Below the pieces are notes generated by a model, which ran no database searches, was not told where the DNA came from, and saw only the letters and a program-made list of their open reading frames with translations. Shown piece after piece: positions 6,861-23,752 of a stretch of 64,000 bases of DNA (its first letter is position 1; every line of letters begins with the position of its first letter). Origin of the DNA: Nitratireductor thuwali (GTDB lineage Bacteria > Pseudomonadota > Alphaproteobacteria > Rhizobiales > Rhizobiaceae); NCBI RefSeq assembly GCF_036621415.1, contig NZ_CP030941.1, positions 2,912,001-2,976,000 of the forward strand, read 5' to 3'. Made by a program: the position numbers and the translations under genes.

Positions 6861-6890
6861 CGCGATCCAAGAATTGGCACGGCCAAGCCC

Positions 6891-6917
6891 ACGTCGGAAC
6901 GACGTATAAGCGCGCCC
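6891..6917. other. oriT: Candidate oriT: inverted repeat plus nic-like site
   Basis: In the gap between divergent traA and traC lies ACGTCG-GAA-CGACGT (6891-6905) followed directly by ATAAGCGCGCCCT. The latter resembles the nic region of Ti plasmids and of the RSF1010 family (core TAA..GCGCCCT). An inverted repeat beside nic, between traA and traC, is the layout known from Agrobacterium and rhizobial plasmids. Nicking itself is not shown. Confidence 0.6.
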
Positions 6918-7029
6918 TCCCTCGAAAAAATCTCGGGATGGACCGGGGCGTCCCGCACCGTCCCTGCAACATAGAAGCATTCCGCAAGGCGCTCAACTAT
7001 CATCGCTGCATCAACAGCTTATGGAGGTG

Positions 7030-7359
7030 ATGGTGCGCAAGCCACGGGACTATGATGTGGAACTGAAAGCGCTTGAGGACAAGGCCAAAGAACTCAAGAC
7101 CCGCAAGGTGCAGCAGCTCGGCGAACTGGTGATCGCAACAGGTGCCGATAACCTCAGCGCCGAGGAACTGGCCGGTGCGCTGGTCGCGCTGGCGGAGACA
7201 AAAGACCCTGCCAAACGGGAGGCGTGGACGAAGCGCGGCGCGGCGTTCTTTCGCAGCAAATCGCGGCGATCTGCTTCGGCATCTGAGCGCGACACTGGCG
7301 GCGCTCCGGCGCAACCGGGCGGCGCGGAACCGGCATCAGGCGGCACAGGCGCGGCATGA
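7030..7359 (+). CDS. traC: Conjugal transfer protein TraC
   Basis: A 109-residue basic protein whose first 35 residues are helical and charged (MVRKPRDYDVELKALEDKAK, then ELKTRKVQQLGELV), as in TraC of Ti-type transfer systems, which assists relaxosome assembly at oriT. The C-terminal third is low-complexity (Ala, Gly, Pro, Ser). GGAGG overlaps the start area, so translation may begin at the ATG at 7030 or the next codon, a GTG. It is followed one base later by traD. Confidence 0.75.
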   Translation: MVRKPRDYDVELKALEDKAKELKTRKVQQLGELVIATGADNLSAEELAGALVALAETKDPAKREAWTKRGAAFFRSKSRRSASASERDTGGAPAQPGGAEPASGGTGAA

Positions 7360-7360
7360 C

Positions 7361-7627
7361 ATGCGCAACTGGCAAATCGAGCGCCGCAAGCGCACGCGGC
7401 ATCTGATTGAACTGGGCGGCCTCGTCGTCAAGTCGGGGATCGTCGAACTGACGGGCGATAATCGCTCCACCATACTCGGGGCGCTGCTCTGGATGGCCGA
7501 CAAGCTCAACAGCGAGCAAGGCGAATATGCACGCGCGCTCTGGGCCGAAAAGGGAAAGCAGGCGTTCTTGGCGGAACACAAAGGCGAGACACCAACCGTG
7601 TCACCAGGCCAGCACGGTCGGTCTTAG
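7361..7627 (+). CDS. traD: Conjugal transfer protein TraD
   Basis: An 88-residue protein beginning MRNWQIERRKRTRHLIELGG, with the typical TraD core LVVKSGIVELTGDNRSTILG followed by GALLWMA. Ti-type TraD is a small accessory protein of DNA processing. The ATG lies one base after the traC stop, so the two are probably translationally coupled. The expected next gene, the TraG coupling protein, is absent and a restriction-modification operon follows instead. Confidence 0.8.
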   Translation: MRNWQIERRKRTRHLIELGGLVVKSGIVELTGDNRSTILGALLWMADKLNSEQGEYARALWAEKGKQAFLAEHKGETPTVSPGQHGRS

Positions 7628-7866: not shown

Positions 7867-9927
7867 GTGATTTGCGTGGATCAAAATGTAGGTGCAAAAG
7901 CCAAAGCGCTATCCAACTTCGTTTGGCAGATCGCCGAGACGCTGCGCGGCGACTTTAGGCAATCCGAATACGGCAAGGTCATTCTGCCCTTCGTGGTGCT
8001 ACGCCGCCTCGACTGCATTCTTGAGCCCAGCAAAGATGCCATCCTCAAAGCACACGCAAACCTGCCAGAGGGCATCGACGAGCAGACCCGCGACATGATG
8101 CTCTTCGGAGCTGTCGGCGGGAACATTCGCGTCTACAATACCAGTTCATTGTCCTTCAAAACCATCCGCTCGCAGAATCCGGCGGATGCGCACAAGAACC
8201 TTGTCGCTTACATCACGGCGTTCTCGGATTCCGTCCGCGAGGTCTTTCTCGAAAGGTTCCTCTTCACCGATCAGCTAAAGCGGTTGAACGAAGCCAGCCT
8301 TCTTTGGAAGGTGTTCGAGCAATTCGCCACGCTTGATTTGACACCGCCGCTGCCGGCGAAGCCCACCGAGGGAGTTTCCACCCTTGTGATGGGCTACCTG
8401 TTCGAAGACCTCATCCGGCGCTTCTCGGAAATCTCGAACGAGACAGCGGGCGAGCATTTTACGCCGCGCGAGGTCATCCGTCTGATCGTTGACCTTCTAC
8501 TAGTCAACGATTCACAGGCACTCACTGGTAAGGGCATCATCCGCCAAGTATATGATCCGGCATGTGGTACGGGCGGAATGTTGGCACTTGCCGAAGAGGG
8601 AATGCGCGATCTCAACCCGGACATCCGGGTCGAACTTTTCGGCCAGGAGCTCAACGGCGAGTCCTTCGGCATTTGCAAGTCGGACATGCTGGTCACTGGG
8701 CACGACCCGGAGAACATCGCTTTCGGCAACACGCTGACGCATGACTCGCATAAGGATCGCAAGTTCCACTACATGCTGTCGAATCCACCCTATGGCGTGG
8801 ATTGGAAGAAATATCAGGAACCCATCAAGGAAGAGGCTGAGACCAAAGGCAAACAAGGCCGCTTCGGTGCGGGATTGCCTCGGATTTCCGATGGCCAGCT
8901 TCTTTTCCTCCAGCACATGATTTCCAAGATGCGGGACGACGAGGCCGGTTCACGCATCGGCATCGTCATGAATGGTTCACCGCTCTTCACCGGTGGCGCT
9001 GGGTCGGGTGAAAGCGAAATCCGCCGCTGGATGCTGGAAAACGACTGGGTCGAGGCCATCGTCGCTCTGCCGACCGACCTCTTCTACAATACCGGCATTC
9101 AGACATATGTGTGGCTCCTGACCAATAGGAAGGAACCGACGAGGCACGGTAAGGTTCAGCTTATCGACGCGTCTGGTGAGCGGTTCTGGACGCCCATGCG
9201 CAAGAACCTGGGTTCCAAACGCCGCGAAATCCGGGACGATGCCCGCGAGACCATTGCCATGATCTTTCATGAGATGGCGAACGGTGGCGGGCCGTGGGGG
9301 GAGGTGTCGAAGATCTTCAATACGACCGATTTCGGCTATCGGGAAATCAGGGTGGAACGCCCGCTCCGGCTGAACTTCCAGGCCAGCGCCGAACGCATCG
9401 AGCGGCTGAAGCTCGCCAAGCCGTTCCTCAAGCTCGATCCTGCCGAACAGGATGACGTGCTGAACGTTGTCACGAACCGGCTTCCCAACACGCTCTTCAA
9501 GGATCGGCCGGCCTTCGAGACTGCTTTGACCAAGGCGCTGAAGGGCGCGGGCGTGAAGATCGGCGCGCCCGTCAGGAAGGCTATCCTCGCCGCTCTGTCC
9601 GAGCGGGATGAGAACGCCGCCATCTGCCTCGACAAGAACGGCAATCCAGAGCCGGACCCCGAACTGCGCGACCACGAGTTGGTGCCGCTCACGGAGGATT
9701 GGAAAGAGTATTTTGCCCGCGAGGTAGCGCCTTTCGTGCCGGACGCGTGGGTGGATGAGAGCTATCGGGACAGTGCCGACAAGGGCGTCGGCCGCGTTGG
9801 CTACGAGATCAACTTCAACCGTTATTTCTACCGCTATGTTGCGCCGCGCCCGCTTGCCGAAATCGACGCCGAGTTGAAAACGCTGGAAGCGGACATTGCC
9901 AGCCTCCTGACCGAGGTGGCGGGATGA
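7867..9927 (+). CDS. hsdM: Type I restriction-modification DNA methyltransferase subunit HsdM
   Basis: The 686-residue protein has the N-terminal HsdM helical domain (about 15-160), then the EHFTPREVIRL segment (196-206), the SAM-binding motif DPACGTGG (230-237) and the catalytic NPPY (306-309) of an adenine-N6 methylase. It methylates the recognition sequence chosen by HsdS to protect host DNA. It is about 150-180 residues longer than classical HsdM, with a C-terminal extension seen in a subset of the family. The frame opens with GTG at 7867; a second GTG at 7876 is also possible. It overlaps the next gene by 4 bases (ATGA). Confidence 0.93.
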   Translation: MICVDQNVGAKAKALSNFVWQIAETLRGDFRQSEYGKVILPFVVLRRLDCILEPSKDAILKAHANLPEGIDEQTRDMMLFGAVGGNIRVYNTSSLSFKTIRSQNPADAHKNLVAYITAFSDSVREVFLERFLFTDQLKRLNEASLLWKVFEQFATLDLTPPLPAKPTEGVSTLVMGYLFEDLIRRFSEISNETAGEHFTPREVIRLIVDLLLVNDSQALTGKGIIRQVYDPACGTGGMLALAEEGMRDLNPDIRVELFGQELNGESFGICKSDMLVTGHDPENIAFGNTLTHDSHKDRKFHYMLSNPPYGVDWKKYQEPIKEEAETKGKQGRFGAGLPRISDGQLLFLQHMISKMRDDEAGSRIGIVMNGSPLFTGGAGSGESEIRRWMLENDWVEAIVALPTDLFYNTGIQTYVWLLTNRKEPTRHGKVQLIDASGERFWTPMRKNLGSKRREIRDDARETIAMIFHEMANGGGPWGEVSKIFNTTDFGYREIRVERPLRLNFQASAERIERLKLAKPFLKLDPAEQDDVLNVVTNRLPNTLFKDRPAFETALTKALKGAGVKIGAPVRKAILAALSERDENAAICLDKNGNPEPDPELRDHELVPLTEDWKEYFAREVAPFVPDAWVDESYRDSADKGVGRVGYEINFNRYFYRYVAPRPLAEIDAELKTLEADIASLLTEVAG

Positions 9928-10835
9928 ACGAGGGTATCAAGGGACGCGCGCTCGAACTCTTCTTCATCGACGGACGGCCGGACGGGATGCTGACTGCCGA
10001 GGTCTTCAACTGGACCGGTCACGTCCTGATGACGCCTCGGACACAAATCATCGAAGCCTTGAAGCGCGAGCAGGCGCGCCGCACTGGCGTCTACCTGTTG
10101 ATCGGCGAACGGGAAGGCGAGCCACTGGCCTATATCGGCGAAAGTGAGGATGTCGCCGAGCGCATCCGCAACCACGACAGTCGGAAGGAGTGGTGGGACA
10201 AGGCGGTCCTGATCACCTCGAACGACCGGAATCTCAACAAGGCGCACGTCAAATATCTTGAGGCGCGGTTGATCGAGGAAGCCCGCCACGCAGCTCGTAT
10301 CGTGCTGGAGAATGGCACCGATCCTGGCCGTCCGGGCCTCTCGGAAGCGCAGCGGGCGAATATGGAGGCGTTTTTGGATCACGTCCTGATGATCCTGCCT
10401 GCGCTGCGTGTCGACTCCTTCCTGAAGAACACGCGCCCAATCTCACAACGCGAGATGGGCATTGCCGCGACCGATGAAGTACCCGTCTTTGAGCTCCATG
10501 CGCGCAGGCATGGTCTTCGGGCCACGGCCCGCTTGGAAGGTGGTGAATTTGTGGTCGAGAAGGGGTCGCAGGCGCGCAAGTCTTGGGAAGGAGTCGAATC
10601 CCATTCATACCAGGCACTGCACGATGAATTGGTGAAGTCGGGAGTACTGCGAGAGGACGGCGACATCCGCGTATTCAGCGAAAACTACGCCTTCAGGAGT
10701 CCGAGCGCCGCTGCGGCCGTCATCAACGGCCGAGCCGCCAATGGTAGGCTCGAATGGAAGGTGACGGGGCAGCGGAAAACCTACGGCGACTGGGAAGCTG
10801 AAAAACTCGCCCGCGATCAAGCGGAGGGTGAGTAA
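9924..10835 (+). CDS. GIY-YIG nuclease with C-terminal DUF4357-type domain
   Basis: Residues about 53-130 form a GIY-YIG nuclease domain: GVYLLIG (55-61), YIGES (70-74), an Arg in VAERIRNH and a Glu in KYLEARLIEEA. The C-terminal region (about 215-300) resembles DUF4357, including RKSWEGVESHSYQALHDEL. It sits between hsdM and hsdS with a 4-base and a 1-base overlap, so it is an integral part of the restriction operon. Such genes are repeatedly linked to type I systems but their job is not established; a nicking, cleavage or self-protection role is possible. Confidence 0.85.
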   Translation: MNEGIKGRALELFFIDGRPDGMLTAEVFNWTGHVLMTPRTQIIEALKREQARRTGVYLLIGEREGEPLAYIGESEDVAERIRNHDSRKEWWDKAVLITSNDRNLNKAHVKYLEARLIEEARHAARIVLENGTDPGRPGLSEAQRANMEAFLDHVLMILPALRVDSFLKNTRPISQREMGIAATDEVPVFELHARRHGLRATARLEGGEFVVEKGSQARKSWEGVESHSYQALHDELVKSGVLREDGDIRVFSENYAFRSPSAAAAVINGRAANGRLEWKVTGQRKTYGDWEAEKLARDQAEGE

Positions 10836-12715
10836 TGCGGCTTAGGCATGTCGTCAAAATTGGGCCGCGCCCGTTGCCGCATCAGACAGCTCTCACCGAT
10901 GCAGAGGTCACGTTCGCCCCGATGGAGGCGCTAGCTGACGGCCTAGGCGGGTTGGACGTATCGCGGACGCGACCTCTCGGAGACGTGGCATCCGGTAGTT
11001 ACAACTTCTTTGCGGAGGGCGATCTGCTGCTGGCCAAGGTTACGCCATGCTTCGAAAATGGGAAGAAAGCGCTGGCGCAAGGACTCAGTTGTGGTGTCGG
11101 TTACGCGACATCGGAAGTGCATGTCATCCGTACCGACACGCGCCGTATTGATCCACGATATCTGCTTTACGTTTTGTCCTCGGAAGATTTTCGAGCAGTC
11201 GGAATGGCCAGCATGACTGGTGCAGGCGGGCTCCGACGCGTTTCCGAGCACGCCATTCTCAATCACCGCGTTCCTGTCACTGATCTCTTCACTCAGAACG
11301 CCATCGCCGAGTTCCTTGACCGCGAAACCGCCCACATCGACCAACTGATCGCGAAGAAGGAGCGGCAAGTAGAGTTGCTGCACAGGCGCGCCAGACAGGC
11401 GGTTGCAGAGCTTGTGACGGGTGCGGCTGTGGAGGGCGCCGCTACCCTGCAAACGAGGCTTGATCATATTCCACGCATCCCTGCCCATTGGTCGCTCCAG
11501 CGAGCGGGGCATCTTTTCCGCCAGGTGACCGAGCCTAATACCGGCGATCTTCCCGTCCTCTCGGTCTCAATTCATCGCGGTATATCGGACAGGCAGCTTG
11601 ACGATGAGGAACGTGACCGCAAGGTGAATCTCATCGAGGACCGTTCGAGCTATAAACGCGTCAGGCCCGGATACCTAGCCTACAACATGATGCGGGCATG
11701 GCAGGGGGCAGTCGGCGTTTCCTCCGTCGATGGCGCCGTGAGCCCTGCATACGTGGTCGCGAAACCGACATGCGACCTACACAGTCCCTACTACCAGTTC
11801 CTGCTTCGCACCCCACCTTTCATCGAGCAGATGCGGCAGGGCTCGAAGGGAATCACCGACTTCCGCCTAAGGCTGTATTGGGAACAGTTTCGCCTCATCA
11901 TGTTGCCTGTTCCCCCGCTGGAAGAGCAACGCAGAATTGCTGGTGAAGCCGAACAGGAGCTAAACCATGCCGACGAGGCGGCGGATAAGGTCGCTCGTTC
12001 TGTTGAACTCCTGAAAGAACGCCGCGCAGCCCTCATCACCGCGGCCGTTACAGGCCAGATCGATATCCGCGAGAAACTGCCTGCCGTCACGACAAAGCCG
12101 GATCGCAGCAAGTTCCGCGTAATCGTCGGAGCCGAGATCGTCCACCGGCATCAGGGTAATCCGAAGTTCGGGCGGGTGAAACTACAAAAAGAACTCTATC
12201 TTGCCGAGGCCCATCTCGGCATAGACGGGTTGCAAGGCAACTATCTCCGCGAGGCCGCCGGTCCACTCGACCGAGCCTTGATCGACGAGACCGAGCGAGG
12301 TCTGGAGGCTGCCGGCTTCTATCGGGCAAGCCAGCGCGATGGAACCGGAACCGCCGTCACCTACGCCCCGCTTGCGAAAGCCGGGCAGCACAAGGCTGAA
12401 CTGGAAACCCTGCTAGGTTCGAAAGCCAACGAACTGCGGAAGCTCATCACCGCGCTTCGCGACCTCGACCGTCGCGAAGTGGAGGCTGTTGCCACCCTCT
12501 ACGCCGTTTGGAACGACGCGCTGATGGACGGCGAGGAGCCTGATGATACAGCGGTCATCAATGGGGTGCTGACCGAGTGGCACACCGAAAAGGGCGAAAA
12601 GTTCAAGGCGGATGACCTTTCCCGTTGGCTCGGCTGGATGAAGCGGCAAGGCTTAACACCGCGAGGACAAGGGCCACGCACCGCCCATACGACAACGCGG
12701 GATATGTTCGGATGA
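10835..12715 (+). CDS. hsdS: Type I restriction specificity subunit HsdS with extra C-terminal domain
   Basis: Residues about 1-400 hold two target-recognition domains separated by conserved helices: the first helix contains FLDRETAHIDQLIAKKERQ and the second EEQRRIAGEAEQELNHADEA, which set the spacing of the bipartite target. HsdS normally ends near 400-450 residues. Here about 190 further residues follow, starting near FRVIVGAEIVHRH, with KLQKELYLAEAHLGI and AAGPLDRAL motifs that recall the KLQKLLY...GP pattern of SocA/Panacea (DUF4065) proteins. That resemblance is my reading, not a search result. Start ATG overlaps the previous stop by one base. Confidence 0.9.
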   Translation: MRLRHVVKIGPRPLPHQTALTDAEVTFAPMEALADGLGGLDVSRTRPLGDVASGSYNFFAEGDLLLAKVTPCFENGKKALAQGLSCGVGYATSEVHVIRTDTRRIDPRYLLYVLSSEDFRAVGMASMTGAGGLRRVSEHAILNHRVPVTDLFTQNAIAEFLDRETAHIDQLIAKKERQVELLHRRARQAVAELVTGAAVEGAATLQTRLDHIPRIPAHWSLQRAGHLFRQVTEPNTGDLPVLSVSIHRGISDRQLDDEERDRKVNLIEDRSSYKRVRPGYLAYNMMRAWQGAVGVSSVDGAVSPAYVVAKPTCDLHSPYYQFLLRTPPFIEQMRQGSKGITDFRLRLYWEQFRLIMLPVPPLEEQRRIAGEAEQELNHADEAADKVARSVELLKERRAALITAAVTGQIDIREKLPAVTTKPDRSKFRVIVGAEIVHRHQGNPKFGRVKLQKELYLAEAHLGIDGLQGNYLREAAGPLDRALIDETERGLEAAGFYRASQRDGTGTAVTYAPLAKAGQHKAELETLLGSKANELRKLITALRDLDRREVEAVATLYAVWNDALMDGEEPDDTAVINGVLTEWHTEKGEKFKADDLSRWLGWMKRQGLTPRGQGPRTAHTTTRDMFG

Positions 12716-13305
12716 GGTATAACGCCGACATCTTCACCGAAGAGGCGATGACCCGGCCGCTCTTTGAGGAGCTTACCGGGGATCACGCACGCGAAGACGA
12801 ATGGTCCGGCCCGCATGGCTTCGCCATCGGCGGAATGATGCAAGCCAATGCCGCTTCCCTGGCCGAGGAGTATTTTGCCGCCGCCAATGAGCTGGTGGAT
12901 GCCATTATGGAAAAGCGCATCGCCGACTACCGTATAGGTAATGCCGCGCTTTTCCTCTATCGCCATTCCTGCGAGCTCATCCTTAAGGCGGCGTTGCCGC
13001 AGGCAAAGCGAAATCACGATCTCGTCGGCCTCACCAACAGCTTCGTTGCGATGGTCAAAGAGCAATATGGCGAGGACGTACCCGTCTGGATCACACGGCG
13101 GATGAAGGAACTGGCCGCTATCGACCCAAATTCCACTGCGTTCCGCTACGGCGCGTATAAAGCGCCAATTGACGCGGCAGATAGACCCATAGAGTTCGAA
13201 GCATATGTTAGCCTTCCGCACCTTCAAGCTGCAATGCTGGCGCTCAACACTGCGTTGGTTTCGGCTGTGTCGGAAATCAGAATGGCGCGGGGGGAACGGC
13301 CATGA
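12712..13305 (+). CDS. HEPN-like hypothetical protein in the restriction operon
   Basis: A 197-residue protein, mostly helical. The segment [20 protein letters not shown] followed by HDLVGL resembles the helix pair of HEPN domains (a His/Glu helix, then an xHDL turn). A clear RNase RxxxxH motif is not obvious, so it may be non-catalytic. Start at the ATG at 12712, which overlaps the hsdS stop as ATGA; the next gene hsdR overlaps its stop by 4 bases. Tight coupling implies a role with the restriction system, perhaps regulatory or as a back-up toxin. This is inference. Confidence 0.6.
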
Positions 13306-16300
13306 ACTACGAACAGCCTCCAATTTCGCACCCTTATGCCAAGGGCTTCTCGGAAGACAGCGTTCATCGCGAGGAGGTGTTGGAAGTCCATATGTGCAAG
13401 GCCCTTGTGGAACGCCAGGGTTATCGCCCCCGCCGCCCTGAGGACTATGACCGCGCATCCGCGCTCGACAAGGCGCTGGTGATCGAGTTCGTCAAGGCGA
13501 CGCAGGCTGACGAATGGGCGAAGCTGGAAAGCCACTATGGCCCTTCGGCCGAAGCAGAGTTCTTCAAGCAGCTTGAGCAGGGACTGAAGCAGCGTGGCGC
13601 GCTGGACCTGTTGCGAAACGGGTTGAAGCTGGTTCCGAACCTGAAATTCTTTCTCGCGGCTTTCAAACCGGCCTCCGGCATAAATCCCGCGCTGGTAGGG
13701 TTGTTCGAAGCCAACATCCTCAGCGTCATCAATCAGCTTCGCTACAGCATCAAGAATGAGAATGCCATTGACGTTGCTCTGTTTGTCAACGGGGTTCCGG
13801 TGATCACACTGGAATTGAAGAATACGTTGACAGGCCAGACTTTCCGACATGCCGAGCGCCAATATCGCTATGATCGGGCACCGGCCAATGAGCCGCTGCT
13901 GACGTTCAAGCGCGGCGCCCTTGTTCACTTTGCCGTGGATCAGGACAACGTGTCCATGACCACCCGGCTCCAGAATGGCAAGACCCGCTTTCTACCTTTC
14001 AACCGTGGGCATAACGGAGGAGCGGGGAATCCGGACATCGAGGAAGAATTCCGCGTCGCGTATCTTTGGGCCGATCAGCCAGAAGGCCGAGCGATTTTCT
14101 CACGTGATGTCTTGCTCGACATTATCGGGAGATTTCTTCATCTCGACACGCGCAACGGCAAGGAGGCGATGATCTTTCCGCGTTTCCACCAGATTGATGC
14201 TGTTCTGAAAATGCTAGCTCATGCCCGCGCCAACGGCAGCGGCAAGAACTATCTTATCCAGCATTCGGCGGGCTCGGGGAAATCCAACACCATTGCATGG
14301 ACAGCGCACCGACTCGTGACCCTTCACGACGACGGTGACCGCCCCGTGTTCGATACGGCGATTGTCGTCACGGACCGGGTCGTTCTCGACCGCCAGCTCC
14401 AAGGCACCATTGCTCAGTTCGAGCAGACGCCGGGTGTGGTCCGAAAGATCGACGGCACCTCACGGCAGCTAAAGGCCGCCATCGAGGGCCAGGCTAAGAT
14501 CGTTATCACAACGATCCAAAAATTCTCGACCGAACACCTTCGGGTGATTTCCGGCCAAGGCTCACGGCGTTTCGCCGTGCTGATCGACGAAGCACACGGA
14601 TCGCAGTCGGGCAAGAGCGCTCAGGCATTGAGCGATGCCCTCAGCCGCGAGGAGGAAGCGAAAACGTCGGACGAGATCGAGGAGCTTATTGCTGAATATC
14701 AGCGCCAGCGCGGCCCTCAGCCAAACATCAGCTATTTCGCCTTCACCGCGACACCTCGCAACGTCACTCTGGAACGTTTCGGCACATATGGCACGGATGG
14801 GCTGCCGCATCCCTTCCACCTATATTCCATGCGACAGGCTATCGAGGAGGGCTTTATCCTCGACGTTCTGCAAAATTACATGACCTACAAGGCCTATTAC
14901 GCCTTGGAAAAGACCATCGATGACGACCCGGAGCTAGATACGCGCCGGGCACAGCGAAAGGTCGCCCGCTTTGCCGCGCTACACCCGACCGCGCTCAGCC
15001 AGAAGGTTGAAGTCATGGTCGAGCATTTCAGGAGGCACGTCCGGCCGGAATTGAACGGTCAGGCAAAGGCAATGATCGTTACATCCAGCCGCGAAAGCGC
15101 GCTCCGCTACTATTTCGCCCTGAAGGCATATATCGAGGACAAAGGCTATCCGGACCTCAAGGCCCTCGTCGCCTTTTCGGGCGAGCTTCACATCGACGGC
15201 ACCACCTACACGGAAGTGGAGCTGAACGAGTTCAGCGAAACCGAGCTTCCAAGACGCTTCGACAGCCCGGATTATCAAGTTCTGATTGTGGCAGAAAAAT
15301 ACCAGACGGGGTTCGATCAGCCGAAGCTCTGCGGCATGTATATCGACAAGAAGTTGGCCGGACTTCAGGCGGTGCAGACTCTCTCCCGCCTGAACCGCAC
15401 ATATCCCGGTAAAGAGCGGACTTTCATCCTCGACTTCCAGAACACGATGGACGAGATCAAAGAGGCGTTCCGTCCATTCTATGAGGTGTCGAGCCTCGAA
15501 GCGGTCTCCGACAAAAACCAAGTTTATCAGTTGGAGACACGTATCCGCACATTCGGCTATCTCGACAGCAACGAGGTCGAGCGTTTTGCCGCTGTCTTTT
15601 TCAAGGGCACGCTTTCAACCCAGGATCGCGTTATGCTGGAAGCGCTCGTTCGCAATGCCGTGGGGCGCTTTGAGGCCGATGACGATGAAGGGCGGCAGGA
15701 AGAGTTCCGGCAGCTCTTGCGAAGCTACAAGCGATTTTACAGCTTCGTCGCGCAGATCGTGCGCCTTGGCGATACCAGTCTCGAGAAACTCTACGCCTAT
15801 GCTGACTGGCTGGACCGGATGCTGCCGAGCCGAGAACAGCCTCCGGAAGTGGAGATCACCGACGAGATGTTGCGTCTGCGGGCGTTCCGCGTGCAGCAAA
15901 AAGAGGTTGGCTCCGCGTCCCTCCAGGCGGGAGATACGCAGCCACTCACAGCGATCAGCGAATTTGGGGCTAAGCCCTATACTGAGGACGAAGCCAAAGC
16001 TCTTTCCGAAATTGTGAGGTCGTTCAACGAGCGGCACGGAACGCAATTCACGGAAGAGGATTTCATCCGGTTGGAACAGGTGAAACGCAAGGCGCTCGAC
16101 GAGGAGATGGCCGCAGTGCTGCGCAACAATCCTCCCGACGTATCGCGCCCGACCTTCGTTCGGCGCCTGTTGGAAGAGACGATCAAACAATATCAGCGCG
16201 ATAGCAGTCTTCAGAACATCATTATGACCAACGCTGAGGATCGCGACCGGATATTCAACCACCTTTTCAGTCGAGCCTTGCGCGAGGTGCGTGAAACACA

Positions 16301-16310
16301 AAATCCCTGA
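13302..16310 (+). CDS. hsdR: Type I restriction endonuclease motor/nuclease subunit HsdR
   Basis: The 1002-residue protein has an N-terminal PD-ExK nuclease (Asp at about 157, ELK at 171-173, then a QxxxY-type helix RHAERQYRY) and an SF2 translocase: Walker A AGSGKSNT (323-330), DEAH (429-432), FTATP near 485 and later helicase motifs. Together with HsdM and HsdS it translocates unmodified DNA and cuts at a distance. All key residues are present, so the system appears functional. It is the last gene of the five-gene operon; an inverted repeat follows at 16343-16376. Confidence 0.95.
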
Positions 16311-16390: not shown

Positions 16391-16663
16391 TTATTGCCCC
16401 CGATAGCCGCCCGTGACGGGAACGCGCGGGCAGAGAAATTCCGACTGGATTTGAGTGGCAGCGGAAGAGTGCTTCCACCAATACAGTGTTGCAATCGCAT
16501 TCGTGTACTGGAAGGGAACCTGAACCACTTCGGGCCTATCGGAGGCTATTTTCTCTAAGTCGCGCTGCCGCGGCCGGCTCTTCCGGCGTGGCCTGACAAT
16601 CTCAATAATGGATCGAAGGGTTGGGGTGTATGCCGCTTCACTGGGGTTCTGCGTCCTCCACAC
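16391..16663 (-). CDS. Possible small overlapping gene at the end of the PurZ-like operon
   Basis: A GTG at 16663, with AGGTGAGG just upstream, opens a 90-codon frame that overlaps the end of the dUTPase-fold gene by 26 bases, much as the other genes of this operon overlap by 17-19 bases. Its translation (for example VPFQYTNAIATLYWWK) is reasonably protein-like but the N-terminal part is basic and low in quality. I do not recognise it. It may be a fourth operon member or only an open frame. Confidence 0.3.
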   Translation of the reverse strand: MWRTQNPSEAAYTPTLRSIIEIVRPRRKSRPRQRDLEKIASDRPEVVQVPFQYTNAIATLYWWKHSSAATQIQSEFLCPRVPVTGGYRGQ

Positions 16664-17699
16664 CCTCACCTTGTTGCCCCTGCCTCTCCGGGGTCGGAGG
16701 GAGCATCCGAGATTCCAATTGCTCAATGCGCTGTAGCGCCTGCTGAAGCTGTTGTGAAAGGCGATCTTGAAATTGAACAAGATCGCCAATCTCTCTTTCC
16801 CGCAGATGTTCAATCCGCGCCCTCCAATTATCCACATAATCCTTCGATACTTGATAAATGCTATTATACGATTGCAAAAAAGTAGGTATAGAAATAACAG
16901 TTGCAACAAATATAGCAAAAGCTGACACAACTCCAATGTTTCTTATGATATTTACACGTGATATCGCCTTATCCGCTTTTTTAGATGCTTTTTCAACGGC
17001 CTCTGGTATGGAGCTGCGAATTGGAACGTGCACTCCGTCCGTCAGGCTCTTAGAAGCTCTTTCGACGAATGCCCGTGGCTCCCAGTATCCTCTTCGTCCG
17101 TCCTGAGTTGTTGGAGGGTCTCCCTGTAGAGCATCAGAGCCACCTTGCCCACTGCCCGTGGTTTTGGTGAATTCTATCCAGATCAAACCTTCATTGCTGG
17201 GAATTACATAATCTTCTGACGTTAGATTATGAATAGGGATGCACAATGCTCCCCAATATCCTGGGTCAACCAGTGGCCCAGTGCCAAGAAGAAGCCCCCT
17301 ATGGACATGGCGTATTTGGAGATTGTATCTTAGAGCTATATAATCTGGTAATCTAAATTGAATATCGCATTCGACAAAGACAATAGAATTAGCTGGAATT
17401 AAAAGTGTTCCATGCGGACGTGGAATCTCTATTTCTTCGAGCTTCCCATCATTTCCGTCGGCGTATCTATAAGCCTTCTTTCCTATTCGTCCTTCATAAG
17501 AAGCCTTTTTGAGGCGCTTCCCTTCATAGAACGGAGCGATCAAGCCGGTTTTCAGCACATATTGCTTAATGTGTTCAGCCGATAAAAGAGAAGGAGGAAT
17601 ATCAGGAAGAGGATCAATGGTGCTGAGACTCGTTGCCAAAGCCTCCGCCGCATTACATGACAACAGCTCTCTTTCTTCGGAATTAGACTTCTTGCTCAT
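16638..17699 (-). CDS. dCTP-deaminase/dUTPase-fold protein with transmembrane helix and coiled coil
   Basis: Residues about 85-180 match the trimeric dCTP deaminase/dUTPase fold: FRLPDYIALRYNLQIRHVHR then GTGPLVDPGYWGAL (139-152), the counterpart of the nucleotide-binding AGxIDPGFxG loop. In dCTP deaminases that loop continues LEL with a catalytic Glu; here it reads CIPI, so deamination is unlikely and nucleotide binding or sensing is a better guess. A linker leads to one transmembrane helix (about 254-276) and a coiled coil (about 292-332) with a Gln/Pro-rich tail. The gene is markedly more AT-rich than its neighbours. It is last of the main operon and overlaps the PurZ-like gene by 17 bases. 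Likely a membrane-anchored nucleotide sensor or effector. Confidence 0.75.
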   Translation of the reverse strand: MSKKSNSEERELLSCNAAEALATSLSTIDPLPDIPPSLLSAEHIKQYVLKTGLIAPFYEGKRLKKASYEGRIGKKAYRYADGNDGKLEEIEIPRPHGTLLIPANSIVFVECDIQFRLPDYIALRYNLQIRHVHRGLLLGTGPLVDPGYWGALCIPIHNLTSEDYVIPSNEGLIWIEFTKTTGSGQGGSDALQGDPPTTQDGRRGYWEPRAFVERASKSLTDGVHVPIRSSIPEAVEKASKKADKAISRVNIIRNIGVVSAFAIFVATVISIPTFLQSYNSIYQVSKDYVDNWRARIEHLREREIGDLVQFQDRLSQQLQQALQRIEQLESRMLPPTPERQGQQGEGVEDAEPQ

Positions 17700-18759
17700 G
17701 CCCCACTCGCTGCGGTTCTGCTACATCGAGCCCAGAGAAGCCAACCCAGTCAATGGTGCGACCAATATCACGTTCGACCCTTTCGAGAAATTTCCTGACG
17801 CGACTTCCTTCATCAAGAAGACTGTCCTCAGATCCTATGTAATCCATGTGGTTAAGCACAAGCCTCGTCGGCGCGTTGGCCGCCAATGCACGGCGAACGA
17901 GTACTGGATCGAACTTTCCAACGCGCCGCAATTTTCGTGTTACGGTCGTGTATTCCTGAATATCTGAATCCACATCGGCGTTGCGTGCAATTTCTTCCCA
18001 AGTCGTTTCATCGACCAGATGGCCAGAATCTCCTGCAACCCTGATTGGGAAGGATCGGATGACCATCGTTATGTCGTCTACATCCCTGGGGCTCAGGCCG
18101 GATTCAGACAACGCGCCCGCGGCTGTCGTCGCGCGTGAGGTTGCTTTCGGCCAATATCCGCCATCGAGAAGGGAAAGGCCAAAACCCTGTGTGCCTTCGA
18201 TGACAACGCGATGTCCTTTGTCCAAGCGCTCTCGCAACAAACCGGTTGTCTCTCCGCGATGGGTGAACTTGTGTAGTTGCTCACAATGCGCAGCATCCCG
18301 CGATGGAAGCTTCAGGTTGCTAGCCTCGCGCGCGATAGATGCCAGAACGGCGGCGCCGACTCCTGAGCCGGTAGAACCGATTGAACTGGCAAGGTTGGAC
18401 TCTTGCTCCCACTTCTTGTGCTCCGGCAAGATAATCTGTGCGTAAGGGCTGATGAATATTCTGTCATGCGGGTAGTCCAATGCTTCCATTTCCTGAAGCA
18501 GAACATCCGCGTCCAGGTAGGAACCAGCGGGGAAATAAACATCCACATCTCTATCGATGCAGCTTGCTGGCATTTGCCGCAGCGCCCACTTCTTGCCAGA
18601 AAGTTCATAGGCCGTATGTCCGGAGTTCGGGCCGCCCACTCGAATGACGGCTACGGAAGCACTACGAACGCGTTTCTGCTCCCGCCGCACGATCTCTAGC
18701 GCAACCTTTCCTTTTCCTTCCGAGCCAAATTGCCCGCCGATCACGATTGATACCGGCAT
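17683..18759 (-). CDS. Short PurA/PurZ-family adenylosuccinate synthetase homologue
   Basis: The 358-residue protein has the P-loop FGSEGKGK (11-18), the GGPNSGHT loop with catalytic His (48), the STGSGVG loop (129-135), EGTQG (188-192), TSRATTAAG (207-215) and TRKLRRVG (274-281) of adenylosuccinate synthetases. House-keeping PurA is about 430 residues and has GDEGKGK; here the catalytic Asp is Ser13. As I recall, phage PurZ enzymes, which join Asp to dGMP on the way to 2-aminoadenine, are also short and lack this Asp. A perfect AGGAGG precedes the start, which overlaps the upstream gene by 19 bases. It probably makes a succinyl-purine (deoxy)nucleotide, but the substrate is not known. Confidence 0.85.
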   Translation of the reverse strand: MPVSIVIGGQFGSEGKGKVALEIVRREQKRVRSASVAVIRVGGPNSGHTAYELSGKKWALRQMPASCIDRDVDVYFPAGSYLDADVLLQEMEALDYPHDRIFISPYAQIILPEHKKWEQESNLASSIGSTGSGVGAAVLASIAREASNLKLPSRDAAHCEQLHKFTHRGETTGLLRERLDKGHRVVIEGTQGFGLSLLDGGYWPKATSRATTAAGALSESGLSPRDVDDITMVIRSFPIRVAGDSGHLVDETTWEEIARNADVDSDIQEYTTVTRKLRRVGKFDPVLVRRALAANAPTRLVLNHMDYIGSEDSLLDEGSRVRKFLERVERDIGRTIDWVGFSGLDVAEPQRVGHEQEV

Positions 18760-20633
18760 GGCTTCCCTCCTGCGACATGTGAACCCACTGCATCGGCTTT
18801 TTCCATAATTGCCGACATCGCGCCCTCGTTGACGAGGATTTCATGCGCTAGCGATTGAAGTTCGCTGACCCGCCCCTCGACCTCGGAGCGTGTTGCGGTA
18901 TCAAAGTCCACGTCTTGTCCAAGCTTCTGGTAACGCTGCCGCCTGACATCACCATTCGCCATGATGTGAACATGGTGAAAGCGCGCACCGAAACGTTCGA
19001 CCATGAAAGCATGGTCCTCCGGAAAACGCAGGCCATCTACTACGATCTTCACCGCTTCCGAAACACGTCTGATAGTTTGCTCTGCCAGCCAGCGCTGCTT
19101 TCCGGTCTCCTGGATTTCCTGTCCCAGCGCCTGCCGGCTCTCCCGATTGAGCGGGGCACCGCGTTTTTTTAAGATATCGTCTATGACCAAACTAAATCGC
19201 GTGTAGGCGTACCCCTTACATTCCAAGGCTCGCGCAAAAGTGGTTTTGCCGGCCGCGATGGGGCCGCTGACACCGATGACGATCGGTCCCGGTTCCGCTC
19301 TAAGATCAGGAACAATCAACGGTGCTTCATCCTCCGACCCGAGTGCTTCCGAAAGCCCTGCCAGATGGAATGACCCAACCAAGGCAGAAGTTATGGCATC
19401 CAACTCGTCATGGGTGACGTTCTTGTCGATGAAGCCACCTTCGATGCCGAACTCACGCAATCCAAGTTTCAGCCATTCAACGCCACCTCCTTTGCGAGGA
19501 ATGCGCATAATGTCTTGCGCAGCGCCAGGATAGCTTTCGATGACGGGAATACCCTTCTTTCGGAGTACTTTCGCGAGCCTTATGCCTCGTTCAGTAAGTT
19601 TCTGCATGCTTGGCAGCAGGCAAGGATAGACATTGACGCCCCGCCTCTTCAATTCCCTTTCGCATTTCCGCATGATTCCAAAGCGCTCTCGTCCAGGGTC
19701 CGAGTCCTCAACGCTTGTTCTGCCAGACGGAAGGCACAACGGTGAATCAATCGAGACGAGATGCGGCTTGCAGGCTACGGTCTGAGTAAGGATTTCATCA
19801 TCAGTATGGAGAGTCTTTGTGGACGCCCTATTACCTTCCAGCATGCACCAGCCAGAACCGCGCTTCTCTGAACCCGTAAGATCGATCCCGACTATCCGAG
19901 CCGTTGAAGCCGGTCCATCTGACAGCAGTTGATCGAAATCAGGAGCCGCCGATAAATCGTCCCCCGCTGCCTCAAAACTTGGGATCTCAGTCCATCCCGC
20001 GGGGGCAGCCCAGCTTTCAAACTCCACCGGCTCTTCAAAAAGGTCGGGTTCGATCAGGAGCCGGGCGAGCACATGATCGAAGATTGCACCCATGGCCGCG
20101 ATATCAGCGCGGTTATAGCGGATCAGCTTCTCCAATGCTGCCACGTCACCACGCAGATAGCGGTGCCAAAGTAACACCGCAGCGAAGCCGTCGACATCAG
20201 CAATTTCGTCACGCAATCTAAGGTCAAGCACCTTTTCAATCGCCTTTTGCCCTCCGGTCAGGCCGACCCGCCGACAGAGGTACATGAGATCGATGTGAGC
20301 CTCGGGCAGCGTCACATCGGGAAACTCTTTCTGCAGAAAGCGCTGATCAAAGCGAATGCCGTTGAAAGTGACCAAAGCCACCGCATCCTTGGCATCTTCA
20401 ATGAGCCGATGATGGCATTGGCCCTTGACAATCGTAGAAGAGCGCCCAGCGATTGACCATCCAATTACAGTGATCTCGTCATAGTAATGGCTTAGGCCGG
20501 TCGTCTCGATATCGAGGAAGAGCACCCGCTCGGGCAGCGAGCGGCATAACGCCAGTTGCTCTTTGAGCTTAGACGGCAAAGCTCGCGGGTGCTGCCATTT
20601 TGGAGTTTCCTGCGGTTCAAGTAGCAACGTCAT
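18741..20633 (-). CDS. Exonuclease / DUF429 / P-loop kinase-like fusion protein
   Basis: The 630-residue protein joins three modules. Residues 36-190 are a DEDD exonuclease of the YprB-like RNase H fold (LFLDIETTGL with D41 and E43, NGIRFD with D96, RYNRAD with Y173 and D177). Residues 245-425 are a DUF429 RNase H-fold domain (GIDLTG, SIDSPLCLP, a Cys/Glu helix CERELKRRG, YPG, and THDELDAITSAL). Residues 450-610 are a nucleotide-kinase-like P-loop domain (GVSGPIAAGKTT at 454-465, DGLRFPED near 533). It is first of the operon with the PurZ-like and dUTPase-fold genes. Two nuclease folds with a kinase in one chain point to nucleotide salvage or degradation of altered DNA; the real activity is unknown. 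Confidence 0.85.
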   Translation of the reverse strand: MTLLLEPQETPKWQHPRALPSKLKEQLALCRSLPERVLFLDIETTGLSHYYDEITVIGWSIAGRSSTIVKGQCHHRLIEDAKDAVALVTFNGIRFDQRFLQKEFPDVTLPEAHIDLMYLCRRVGLTGGQKAIEKVLDLRLRDEIADVDGFAAVLLWHRYLRGDVAALEKLIRYNRADIAAMGAIFDHVLARLLIEPDLFEEPVEFESWAAPAGWTEIPSFEAAGDDLSAAPDFDQLLSDGPASTARIVGIDLTGSEKRGSGWCMLEGNRASTKTLHTDDEILTQTVACKPHLVSIDSPLCLPSGRTSVEDSDPGRERFGIMRKCERELKRRGVNVYPCLLPSMQKLTERGIRLAKVLRKKGIPVIESYPGAAQDIMRIPRKGGGVEWLKLGLREFGIEGGFIDKNVTHDELDAITSALVGSFHLAGLSEALGSEDEAPLIVPDLRAEPGPIVIGVSGPIAAGKTTFARALECKGYAYTRFSLVIDDILKKRGAPLNRESRQALGQEIQETGKQRWLAEQTIRRVSEAVKIVVDGLRFPEDHAFMVERFGARFHHVHIMANGDVRRQRYQKLGQDVDFDTATRSEVEGRVSELQSLAHEILVNEGAMSAIMEKADAVGSHVAGGKPCRYQS

Positions 20634-20867: not shown

Positions 20868-21176
20868 ATGCACGGTGCCGATTTGGGCAGGAAAAAGTCG
20901 GAATACAGCATAGGCAATTTCGACATCACCATTGAGTCGATCATCGATGATGAGTCGCGGCTGCACGACTATGGATTCAGCAGATCGACGTGGCTCCGAG
21001 GTGTGAGGCTTATGAAGCGATTTGGCTCTGAGGAAGCGCTTGAGCTGATGGATCAAAGGGCGGACGGGGCGCTTGAACGGGGCAATCTCGCGCTATGCAA
21101 TAGGTGGCGTGATCTGATGGGTGTTATTCATGCAATAGAAGCGGATGAGCCGCTGCCGTCCGACCGTATTCAGTGA
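20868..21176 (+). CDS. DUF6961-like small hypothetical protein
   Basis: A 102-residue protein whose C-terminal half (SEEALELMDQRADGALERGN then LALCNRWRDLMGVI) resembles the DUF6961-type helical motif common in sphingomonads and other alphaproteobacteria, where it reads roughly A..i..ria.L...gd..g...W..i...i. The ATG at 20868 is my choice; longer forms from 20769 have poor N-terminal sequence. It is divergent from the nuclease fusion gene and shares a 234-base promoter region with it. Function unknown. Confidence 0.55.
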   Translation: MHGADLGRKKSEYSIGNFDITIESIIDDESRLHDYGFSRSTWLRGVRLMKRFGSEEALELMDQRADGALERGNLALCNRWRDLMGVIHAIEADEPLPSDRIQ

Positions 21177-22009
21177 TTGCGGTGCTGGGAACAATCCACG
21201 GCTACGACAGACCAGGAACTTCGCTTTCCTCCCAAGAGCGAGGTGAGGTCTCCGCAAAGAGTCCGAAGCTTATCATCAATTTTCCAGGGCGGATTGCATA
21301 TGACGATGCCACTTCCCGCCAGTATGCCGCCATCTCGCTGATAGGGGCAAAATTCTGCCTGAAGGGCGCTTGAGAAGCCCGCCAAAGCAGCGGCAGATGC
21401 TACTGCCTCACCCGTGGTAGGCTCCTTGATTGGATACCATACCATAAAGATACCAGTCGCCCACTTCTGGAAGCCCTTTTGAAGAGCCCTTTGGATCAGG
21501 TTGATTTCATCTTTTCGTTCGAACGGAGGATCGATAAAGACCACTCCTCTACGCTCTGGCGGAGGTAAGAGCGCGCCGATGGCTTCGTACCCGTCCCTTA
21601 CGTGAACAGAAATGCGACGATCCTTCTGATAGCGGCGCTTCAGTTGCAGTCCGTCCGTCGGATGCAGCTCACACAGAATGAGCCGGTCGCATTCCCGAAG
21701 TGCCAAGCGGGCGAGTTCGGGTGAGCCCGGATATGAAGTGAGTCCATTACCGTTTATCGCATGGAGAGCACTAAAATACATGGATGCGGATGGGAGTGCC
21801 CGTCCGAATATCCGCTCAACCCCAGCAGCTTTTTCGTTCGTTCGCAGTGCCTCATCAGCCGTGAGATCATACAGGCCGATCCCCGCGTGCGTATCGAGTA
21901 TCGCGAATGGCCGCGGTTTCTGCAGGAGTTGTTCCAACACCAGGGTCAATGCGGCGTGCTTGAAAACCTCGGTGTGATTGCCCGCGTGAAATGCGTGTCG
22001 ATAATTCAT
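21170..22009 (-). CDS. rlmJ: 23S rRNA (adenine-2030-N6)-methyltransferase RlmJ
   Basis: The 279-residue protein starts MNYRHAFHAGNHTEVFKH, the invariant RlmJ N-terminus, followed by LDTHAGIGLYDL (SAM-binding) and DPPF (160-163), the catalytic [DN]PP[YF] motif. RlmJ methylates A2030 of 23S rRNA. The length matches the family (about 280). It lies inside the mobile element, beside the integrase, rather than in a core context, so it may be a second copy or a displaced one. Confidence 0.93.
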   Translation of the reverse strand: MNYRHAFHAGNHTEVFKHAALTLVLEQLLQKPRPFAILDTHAGIGLYDLTADEALRTNEKAAGVERIFGRALPSASMYFSALHAINGNGLTSYPGSPELARLALRECDRLILCELHPTDGLQLKRRYQKDRRISVHVRDGYEAIGALLPPPERRGVVFIDPPFERKDEINLIQRALQKGFQKWATGIFMVWYPIKEPTTGEAVASAAALAGFSSALQAEFCPYQRDGGILAGSGIVICNPPWKIDDKLRTLCGDLTSLLGGKRSSWSVVAVDCSQHRNH

Positions 22010-22327: not shown

Positions 22328-23515
22328 CTAACGGCCCGCCTTTAATGCGTCTAGCAAATTCCCCCACTCCTGCATCAGCATCACCCGCTGCTCCCAATAG
22401 GTGGCGCGGTTGTAGGTTCGCCGGATGGCGTTCTTATCCTGATGCGCCAGGACCGCCTCAATTACGTCTGGATCGTAGTTGCGGGCGTTGAGGATGGTGC
22501 TGGCGGTCACCCGGAAGCCGTGGGCGGTCACTTCGTCCTTGCTGTACCCCATACGCCGCAACGCGGCATTCATGGCGTTCTCCGAGAGGGGGCGCCTGGT
22601 CGAGCGGATCGAAGGAAAGACCAATCCGCCGTGCTCGGAGAGCGGCCAGACCTCTTCCAAGACCAGAAGTGCCTGCTTGGATAGCGGCACGTCGTGCGGA
22701 GCGCGCATCTTCATGCGCTCGGCCGGAATGCGCCAGACGAACTTCTTTAGGTCGAACTCGTCGCGGGTAGCTCCCCGTACCTCGCCGGGGCGGACGCAGG
22801 TGAGGGCGAGGAACTGGAGAGCGGCTTTGAGGGTCGGCCATCCATCGTAGTCATCGATCGCCACAAGGAGCTGACCGAATTTTCTTTCATCGGTGATAGC
22901 AGCGCGGCCATTAACTTTCGGCGGCTGGAGAGCACCCTGGAGGGCCAGGGTGGGGTCGGTCTCGGCGCGGAGGGTGACAATCGCCAGCCGGAAGACGCTG
23001 CCGATCACGCCGCGCAAGCGCCGCGCCGTCTCTCTTCGGCCGCTCTTTTCGATCTTCTGGAGGAGTTGGAGTATTTCCGCGGGGGTTATCTCTTTGATGG
23101 GACGCTTGGCGAGCGGGCTGGCCAGGTCCTCGAGGAGCCACTTGGTTTTGGTAACGGTGGCCGCCGCCGCCTTCCGTTCCTCCATCCGCCTAACATATTC
23201 CTCGGCGATAAGGCCGAAGGTGGTGCGCGCTTCCGTGATGGCCGCGATCTTCTCCTCCTTGCGCTTTGTGGAGGGGTTGATACCGGCAATAAGGAGCCTC
23301 TTGGCTTCGTCGCGCTTCTCTCTCGCGTCGAGAAGCGACACCAGCGGGTATTTCCCAAAGGAGAGGATATTTTCCTTCTCCAGGTAGCGATAGCGCAGTT
23401 GCCAGAGCTTGGAGCCGCTTTTTTGGACGAGGAGATAGAGCCCGTCGCCGTCGGCGAGACGATACGGCTTGTCCCTGGGTTTGGCGTTCTTGCAGGCGAA
23501 GTCGGAAAGCGGCAT
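22328..23515 (-). CDS. int: P4-type tyrosine integrase
   Basis: The 395-residue protein has the N-terminal DUF4102 arm-binding domain (DGLYLLVQKSGSKLWQLRYR), a core-binding domain (about 98-185) and a catalytic domain with Arg242 (CVRPGE), HGFR (332-335), His358 and the nucleophile Tyr368 (RRTYNRA). It integrates and excises the element at tRNA-Phe, whose 3' end lies 160 bases upstream of its start. I start at MPLSDFACKN (23515), the family start; the open frame continues upstream without a good start. Catalytic residues are intact. Confidence 0.93.
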   Translation of the reverse strand: MPLSDFACKNAKPRDKPYRLADGDGLYLLVQKSGSKLWQLRYRYLEKENILSFGKYPLVSLLDAREKRDEAKRLLIAGINPSTKRKEEKIAAITEARTTFGLIAEEYVRRMEERKAAAATVTKTKWLLEDLASPLAKRPIKEITPAEILQLLQKIEKSGRRETARRLRGVIGSVFRLAIVTLRAETDPTLALQGALQPPKVNGRAAITDERKFGQLLVAIDDYDGWPTLKAALQFLALTCVRPGEVRGATRDEFDLKKFVWRIPAERMKMRAPHDVPLSKQALLVLEEVWPLSEHGGLVFPSIRSTRRPLSENAMNAALRRMGYSKDEVTAHGFRVTASTILNARNYDPDVIEAVLAHQDKNAIRRTYNRATYWEQRVMLMQEWGNLLDALKAGR

Positions 23516-23676
23516 GGGTAACGAGCCTCCGGGGTAATGGGCAATACCCGGATCGTTACCCACAAACTGATGCGTTGCAATGGTACGTGGCGGGGCGCCA
23601 TGAGCAGCCATAACCAGCTAACTCGTTGATTTTTAACCATCTGAGAGACGGTCTGAGAAGCTATGGGAAGGGGCAA

Positions 23677-23752
<76 letters not shown>

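Follow-up and report, generated by a model that had tools for sequence, protein, structure and literature searches.

A mobile bacterial operon of a nuclease-kinase, a PurZ-like synthetase and a membrane dUTPase-fold protein: a candidate nucleotide-signalling defense system

The window, a 64,000-nucleotide stretch of the Nitratireductor thuwali genome (contig NZ_CP030941.1), carries three consecutive minus-strand genes, here called A (18741..20633, 630 aa), B (17683..18759, 358 aa) and C (16638..17699, 353 aa). Their reading frames overlap by 19 bases (A/B) and 17 bases (B/C), in agreement with the overlaps of 17-19 bases given in the first-pass annotation, and its placement of the genes on a mobilizable element beside a type I restriction system also holds. 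The island is situated at a tRNA-Phe gene (23677..23752, minus strand), its probable attachment site, and includes a tyrosine integrase (22328..23611, minus strand; Arm-DNA-bind_3, Phage_int_M and Phage_integrase), a MobA/MobL relaxase with a helicase domain (3861..6980, minus strand) and TraD (7142..7627). A second attachment site was not found, as 20 bases from the 3' end of the tRNA-Phe gene have no other copy in the genome at two or fewer mismatches. The type I restriction genes (7867..16310, plus strand) comprise HsdM (7867..9927), a PDC-S14-like gene (9924..10835), HsdS (10835..12715) and HsdR (13302..16310), and are regarded as neighboring context rather than as components of the operon; the corresponding clusters are shared with 13 (HsdM), 14 (HsdS) and seven (HsdR) of 78 related loci. 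A paralogue of the RlmJ-family methyltransferases (21170..22009; PF04378, E 6e-59), a possible accessory gene, lies upstream of A and shares its strand, and a second rlmJ copy is found elsewhere in the host genome (G000:C1:3647556-3648278). Genes of this cluster occur in 12 of the 78 related loci, in nine of which they lie on the strand of A, 87-524 bp upstream of it. Another family, D' (~245 aa, no Pfam match in the scanned members), was considered as an RlmJ relative and is unsupported as such (hhalign probability 2.5).

Gene A encodes a DEDD-type exonuclease domain (RNase_H_2, residues 38-188, E 2e-29), an RNase H-fold domain of the DUF429 type (~245-440, 17.4 bits against a cut-off of 23) and an adenylate-kinase-like P-loop kinase (~448-624; AAA_18, 31.8 bits, above cut-off), which supports the initial reading of two RNase H-fold nuclease domains fused to a nucleotide-kinase-like P-loop. 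The key residues of all three domains are invariant in 50 of 50 A sequences. Against the PADLOC library, A matches only parts of models belonging to other systems, its kinase domain scoring 35.8 bits with the dCTPase model; the same domain has a weak match to NF041025 (15.6 bits, cut-off 400).

Gene B is an adenylosuccinate synthetase by Pfam (E 4e-43) with PurZ (NF038379) as its top NCBIfam match, and because its score of 246.1 bits does not reach the curated cut-off of 300 we call it PurZ-like rather than PurZ. Its GGQFGSEGKG motif carries Ser13 at the position of the PurA catalytic Asp, which is the PurZ-like active-site change recognized in the first-pass annotation, and the change is conserved in the family. 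Among 75 B sequences (a set omitting those shorter than 300 aa, namely L073 and the B of L024, which is in pieces, and the loci L074 and L082, which have none) this position is Ser in 68, Gly in seven and Asp in none, and among the B homologues listed it is Ser in 119 of 120, the remaining one being unread by the pattern; Asp is found there in six of six bacterial PurA and in Pyrococcus horikoshii PurA. The TTVT loop of the 75 reads TTVT in 35, TSVT in 20, TTAT in 11 and other variants in the rest. In two trees B clusters with phage PurZ and PurZ0, apart from the Asp-bearing PurA (support 88 and 98, respectively), in a cluster that takes in a single archaeal PurA in the first tree, that is joined in the second by a further Asp-bearing sequence of archaeal type, and that differs in inner branching order between them. 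Both trees nest phage PurZ and PurZ0 inside cellular diversity, with weak inner support (35-36) in the first and better support (74-96) in the second. Residues and trees together identify B as PurZ-like, and an ordinary PurA is rejected on the missing Asp13 and the tree position; the host has a separate purA (C1:1747494-1748507).

Gene C encodes a protein with a dCTP-deaminase/dUTPase (DCD) fold (residues 37-217; 27.2 bits, cut-off 27), followed by one membrane segment predicted from hydropathy (257-275) and, in the structure model, a helix spanning residues 231-331, which bears out its original description as a membrane protein of this fold. The membrane tails vary among loci. In 77 C sequences (a set omitting three reading frames shorter than 280 aa, in L034, L053 and L079) the position of the deaminase catalytic Glu is invariably Pro, which rules out an active dCTP deaminase. 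The motif-1 Asp is found in one of the 77, with Glu there in 59, and the two serine positions of the RSS motif hold Ser in one and four, respectively. Since the RSS motif aligns to residues 128-130, R124 and N126, conserved in 77 of 77, are conserved features of C apart from it. An Asp aligned with what we take to be the catalytic Asp of dUTPase is retained in 75 of 77, and residual hydrolysis may therefore be possible. Nevertheless, C looks more like a sensor or effector than an enzyme, because the deaminase residue and most dUTPase motif residues have been lost while the fold and the membrane segment have been kept.

The 78 A-containing loci come from several phyla. A strict A-B-C order is present in 55 of them and matches to all three genes in 19 more (74 of 78 in total, counting L034, in which the C match is a 137-aa minus-strand fragment), and B accompanies A in 76, in two cases as a partial or broken match. 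The same gene order thus recurs in unrelated genomes, and the converse, that homologues are never found together, is clearly contradicted across the A-containing loci. Near-duplicates exist among the loci (L022/L023 and L064/L065), and linkage of B to C is conditional on A because the loci were collected through A. There are exceptions: L086 has B and C and an A without a kinase match, and C is missing from L059, where A and B are both present. A deoxynucleoside kinase is added after C in 16 loci, and rhizobial plasmids carry a second architecture, a kinase-PurZ fusion, near an HD protein closest to dNMP phosphatase families with a weak match to a dATP triphosphohydrolase family. Overall, the kinase and the PurZ-like enzyme go together in three architectures. 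On a Rhizobium plasmid, a related synthetase bearing the Asp forms part of a cluster of the 7-deazaguanine type.

The operon is sparsely distributed. In a class sample of 385 genomes, the window's own included, A was found in one (E<=1e-50), B-like proteins in six (1e-20; among them the kinase fusions L091-L093, and L094 and L095) and C in two (1e-12), one of these (G355) being partial, at a contig end and without A or B; an order sample of 397 genomes, again including the window's own, has A in two. Scans of viral contigs that used A, B and an alignment of A yielded no relative, none of 72,556 plasmid records has a place covering 80% of A, and B relatives in 218 of 50,697 phage records are all below 60% identity; on these scans, phages and plasmids are rejected as the home of the operon. 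A, B and C constitute one horizontally spread unit. The distance test covered 68 loci with an A of at least 500 aa and a B and C of at least 280 aa. Neighbors of the loci match 124 PADLOC families versus nine for controls, a contrast that counts families rather than genes, many of them redundant (RmrA, Specificity_I), with controls drawn from the window's relatives only. Pfam tallies of the same set of 140 are less telling: no defense family exceeds a few members, dNK, integrase and DUF5131 each occur in three neighbor members, and response regulators occur in seven control members. At E<=1, neither B nor C has a match among the PADLOC models, and our literature searches found no published description of an A-B-C operon.

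Tentatively, the likeliest role of A-B-C is defense against phages (or mobile elements), with a non-canonical purine deoxynucleotide as the signal; what the sequences themselves show is its conserved linkage, the intact motifs of A and B, the motif loss and membrane segment of C, and the defense-rich surroundings. Upon infection, the level of purine dNMPs, chiefly dGMP, would go up, either because the phage degrades host DNA or by the action of the exonuclease and DUF429 domains of A. Judging from its residues and phylogeny, B would join the dNMP to aspartate in the manner of PurZ, giving an N6-succinylated 2-amino purine dNMP that host PurB may convert to the 2-aminoadenine form. The kinase of A together with host NDK could then raise the product to a di- or triphosphate, as the linkage and fusion of kinase and PurZ suggest, and its binding by the degenerate DCD/dUTPase-fold domain of C might trigger the membrane part, leading to a growth stop or membrane leak. 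Points against this reading are the score of B below the PurZ cut-off, the Gly in seven of its 75 sequences, the Asp kept in C and the exceptions L086 and L059, and pure signalling does not account for the nuclease domains of A. A more specific version, to which we give only a small share of belief, is a bacterial immune pathway in which a 2-aminoadenine-type or N6-succinyl deoxynucleotide is the second messenger, the sensor is a catalytically dead dUTPase-fold membrane protein, and phage PurZ descended from this bacterial immune family.

Depletion of nucleotide pools, in which membrane-bound C hydrolyzes dNTPs, B locks dGMP into a dead-end succinyl nucleotide and DNA is broken down by A, together starving phage replication, is rather unlikely overall. 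The dUTPase-type Asp of C is consistent with it, as are the accounts of defense by dNTP degradation (PMC12265719) and of the phage Dut-like DutZ, which hydrolyzes dATP and dGTP and is present in all 98 PurZ0 phage genomes studied (PMC12884076); however, the near-complete loss of the motif-1 Asp and RSS serines argues against hydrolysis, a membrane anchor with variable tails would be odd for a pool enzyme, and a kinase raising dNMPs opposes depletion. Quite improbable, in our view, is the sensing of nucleotides set free from phage DNA that carries modified bases. The unusual dNMP, released when A digests the DNA, would be phosphorylated by the kinase and sensed by C, with B performing a converting or detoxifying step. 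The union of two nuclease-fold domains and an NMP-kinase-like domain in a single chain would suit such a role, and phage dNMP kinases are described as taking part in Kongming signalling (PMC12948488), but the PurZ-type active site of B and its near-constant presence with A are left unexplained. A role outside defense, in salvage or stress metabolism encoded on islands, is similarly improbable: every part is a nucleotide or nucleic-acid enzyme or fold, and the Asp-bearing synthetase of the 7-deazaguanine-type cluster points the same way, but the sparse distribution, the mobile island with its restriction neighbors, the anchored and degenerate C and the separate host purA all argue otherwise. 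Least probable is self-marking (or base substitution), in which dNTPs of the 2-aminoadenine type, or with some other modification, are made by the operon and enter host DNA, and the nucleases of A are directed at DNA without (or with) the base. In its favor are the dNMP-type and deoxynucleoside kinases that accompany the PurZ-like B and the reported entry of Z into bacterial DNA with just three S-2L genes (PMC8342488); against it are a membrane-bound C, the absence of a DNA polymerase among the identified recurrent neighbor clusters of related loci, and the toxicity of the Z-cluster to the host described in the same source.

In the accessible literature, PurZ is a phage enzyme making the Z base, plus four archaeal sequences (PMC12884076). 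Here, a conserved bacterial operon holds a family with the active-site change of PurZ, and the branching of phage PurZ and PurZ0 within cellular diversity makes the origin of Z-genomes testable. The operon points to defense chemistry outside the PADLOC library, and its enzymology should be simple to approach because separate production is feasible for B, for the kinase and for the soluble part of C.

A likeness to the anti-phage dCTP deaminases (AvcD-like) lies in the matches of the A kinase to the PADLOC dCTPase model and, weakly, to NF041025, but A has no deaminase domain and the deaminase Glu is missing from the DCD fold of C. Clover (CloAB) ties sensing of deoxynucleotide levels to defense (PMC12265719), as A-B-C would, whereas Pfam matches neither a dGTPase HD protein nor a nucleotidyltransferase in A-C. 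The likeness to the phage Z-cluster (PurZ/PurZ0, DatZ, MazZ, DutZ and DpoZ) lies in B, which groups with PurZ/PurZ0 and shares their Ser change, and in the accompanying dUTPase-fold C, as DutZ accompanies PurZ0; in contrast to the phage genes, A-B-C is bacterial, has no Z-polymerase, DatZ or MazZ among its three members, includes A as an addition to the set, and has a C that is membrane-anchored with lost motifs. In Kongming (KomABC), a non-canonical purine deoxynucleotide is described as being made from a dNMP, raised by a dNMP kinase and NDK, and sensed by a dedicated protein (PMC12948488). By analogy, the logic proposed for A-B-C would be the same, a non-canonical purine deoxynucleotide being made, phosphorylated and sensed. 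By Pfam, neither a KomA-type deaminase nor a KomC-type NAD-depleting domain is present in A, B or C; instead, a PurZ-like synthetase would make the nucleotide, the operon itself supplies the kinase, and sensing would fall to a membrane protein with a DCD fold.

The three overlapping genes reported by the first-pass annotation are present on the minus strand of the window, overlapping by 19 and 17 bases: A (18741-20633), encoding a DEDD exonuclease joined to DUF429 and an adenylate-kinase-like P-loop kinase, B (17683-18759), a PurZ-like adenylosuccinate synthetase, and C (16638-17699), a dCTP-deaminase/dUTPase-fold protein with a predicted membrane segment. The surrounding island adjoins tRNA-Phe and carries an integrase, a relaxase and a TraD gene, and a type I restriction operon does adjoin A-B-C. 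The GC contents of C (0.46), B (0.55) and A (0.55) compare with 0.61-0.68 in 2-kb blocks to the right of the tRNA. Inside the restriction operon, the gene at 9924-10835 matches the candidate family PDC-S14 of the defence-system model library PADLOC; its product has DUF4357 and a GIY-YIG match below threshold.

A genome scan with A gave 113 relatives, the best 80 of which were kept and represent 78 loci. The suggestion that the genes would co-occur in the same order was borne out, with strict A-B-C in 55 of these 78 A-containing loci. A further 19 match all three genes in a looser arrangement, including loci with a gene of the ~245-aa family D' between B and C, loci in which a separate ORF encodes the kinase, two rearranged loci (L038 and L043), one broken (L024) and one with a fragmentary C (L034). 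Two of the 78 have A and B, and two have A alone (L074 and L082), the kinase part also being missing from the latter pair; L086 has B and C and no kinase match. Distance correlations among A, B and C across 68 loci were 0.86, 0.56 and 0.60, versus 0.15 at best in 500 permutations, and many contigs of equal size are common to the lists of 120 homologues for each gene. The operon is real and occurs in several phyla, yet sparsely.

Accessory genes recur beside it. A deoxynucleoside-kinase cluster (identity checked with Pfam on members such as L040 and L045) lies 3' of C on the same strand, with a gap of -110 to 36, in 16/78 loci, none of which is among the 21/78 with D'. The uncharacterised D' genes (e.g., L010:14011-14727) adjoin B or C (in 20 loci no more than about 210 bp separates them from a C) and share the motifs RYxGDxGD, DPDNG and YHH; three members scanned against Pfam and two against PHROG had no match. 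An RlmJ paralogue, present also in the window, occurs in 12/78 loci; in nine of these it precedes A on the same strand, 87-524 bp away. Of 662 eligible neighbour proteins at 72 loci, a sample of 140 matched 124 PADLOC families at E<=1e-15. Controls drawn from 20 regions in relatives and in the organism's own genome (140 of 319 proteins) matched nine, a contrast rather than a gene count because these families are redundant. Pfam tallies of the same samples gave a less telling contrast.

The active-site change attributed to B holds across the 75 B sequences from A-B-C loci (the window's and those of 74 further loci), with Ser at the Asp13 position in 68 and Gly in seven. All 75 have PIRV where six bacterial PurA have TTRV, and the TTVT loop opens with Thr in 71, at a position occupied by Gly in the same PurA. 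The top NCBIfam match of B is PurZ, scoring below cut-off, and its closest solved structure is 7vf6, which is PurZ0 of Gordonia phage Archimedes according to PMC12884076. By these sequence features gene B is PurZ-like. In a first tree (96 sequences, LG+G4), Pyrococcus horikoshii PurA (Asp) splits from the Ser/Gly sequences with support 88, and 72 of the operon B sequences form a clade with four phage PurZ0 (support 100). A second tree (102 sequences, WAG+R4, stricter column filtering) supports the Ser/Gly clade at 98; a lone plasmid synthetase and the phage PurZ and PurZ0 sequences fall together with the 72 in a group supported at 96, and, unlike in the first tree, PurZ0 joins PurZ (81). B of L080, L081 and L086 falls outside the 72 in both. 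Comparing supports and groupings across both trees, the outer split is firm, though archaeal-type outgroups are few; the branching order inside it is not firm.

A second architecture, a fusion of kinase and PurZ that has Ser in place of Asp13, occurs on six rhizobial plasmids (L087, L088, L127, L128, L129 and L132); four further fusions come from genomes (L002, L091, L092 and L093), and the kinase part of the A profile matches 10/10. On the plasmids a DUF7002 protein follows the fusion (L087 9586-10275), with an HD protein and an uncharacterised 456-aa protein (L087 10272-11642) on the opposite strand, 2.5-3.4 kb further away in L128. Identities to the L087 partners in the other five plasmids are 51-79% (DUF7002), 71-76% (HD) and 73-82% (456-aa). 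The HD protein best matches phage dNMP-phosphatase families (210 bits) and matches dATP triphosphohydrolase weakly (30.5 bits). Surrounding genes include AbiE, SIR2, DUF87, SbcD, AbiJ-NTD4 and UvrD.

Related genes occur on other plasmids. Sinorhizobium medicae pMl5 has a lone PurZ-like synthetase (Ser) directly followed by a 340-aa uncharacterised gene (L131 5995-8057); the synthetase branches with the operon B sequences in the second tree. A short stand-alone protein of a Dyadobacter plasmid (L133 6974-7594), with 58.5% identity to the DUF429 part of A, has no annotated operon neighbours. On Rhizobium leguminosarum pRL23b2, an archaeal-type synthetase retaining Asp13 is clustered with folE, queC, queE, purB, IMP dehydrogenase and nitrile hydratase (L130 5363-12925), an arrangement resembling 7-deazapurine nucleoside antibiotic clusters.

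For everything beyond a conserved set with these active sites, the best mechanism we can infer is that B would make a non-canonical deoxynucleotide by PurZ-type synthesis, that the kinase domain of A would phosphorylate it, and that C would sense the phosphorylated product at the membrane. No description of the A-B-C operon was found in the literature searched. The terms adenylosuccinate and PurZ are absent from the main text of DefensePredictor, which does place dUTPase and nucleotide-kinase domains among predicted, unvalidated defence proteins.
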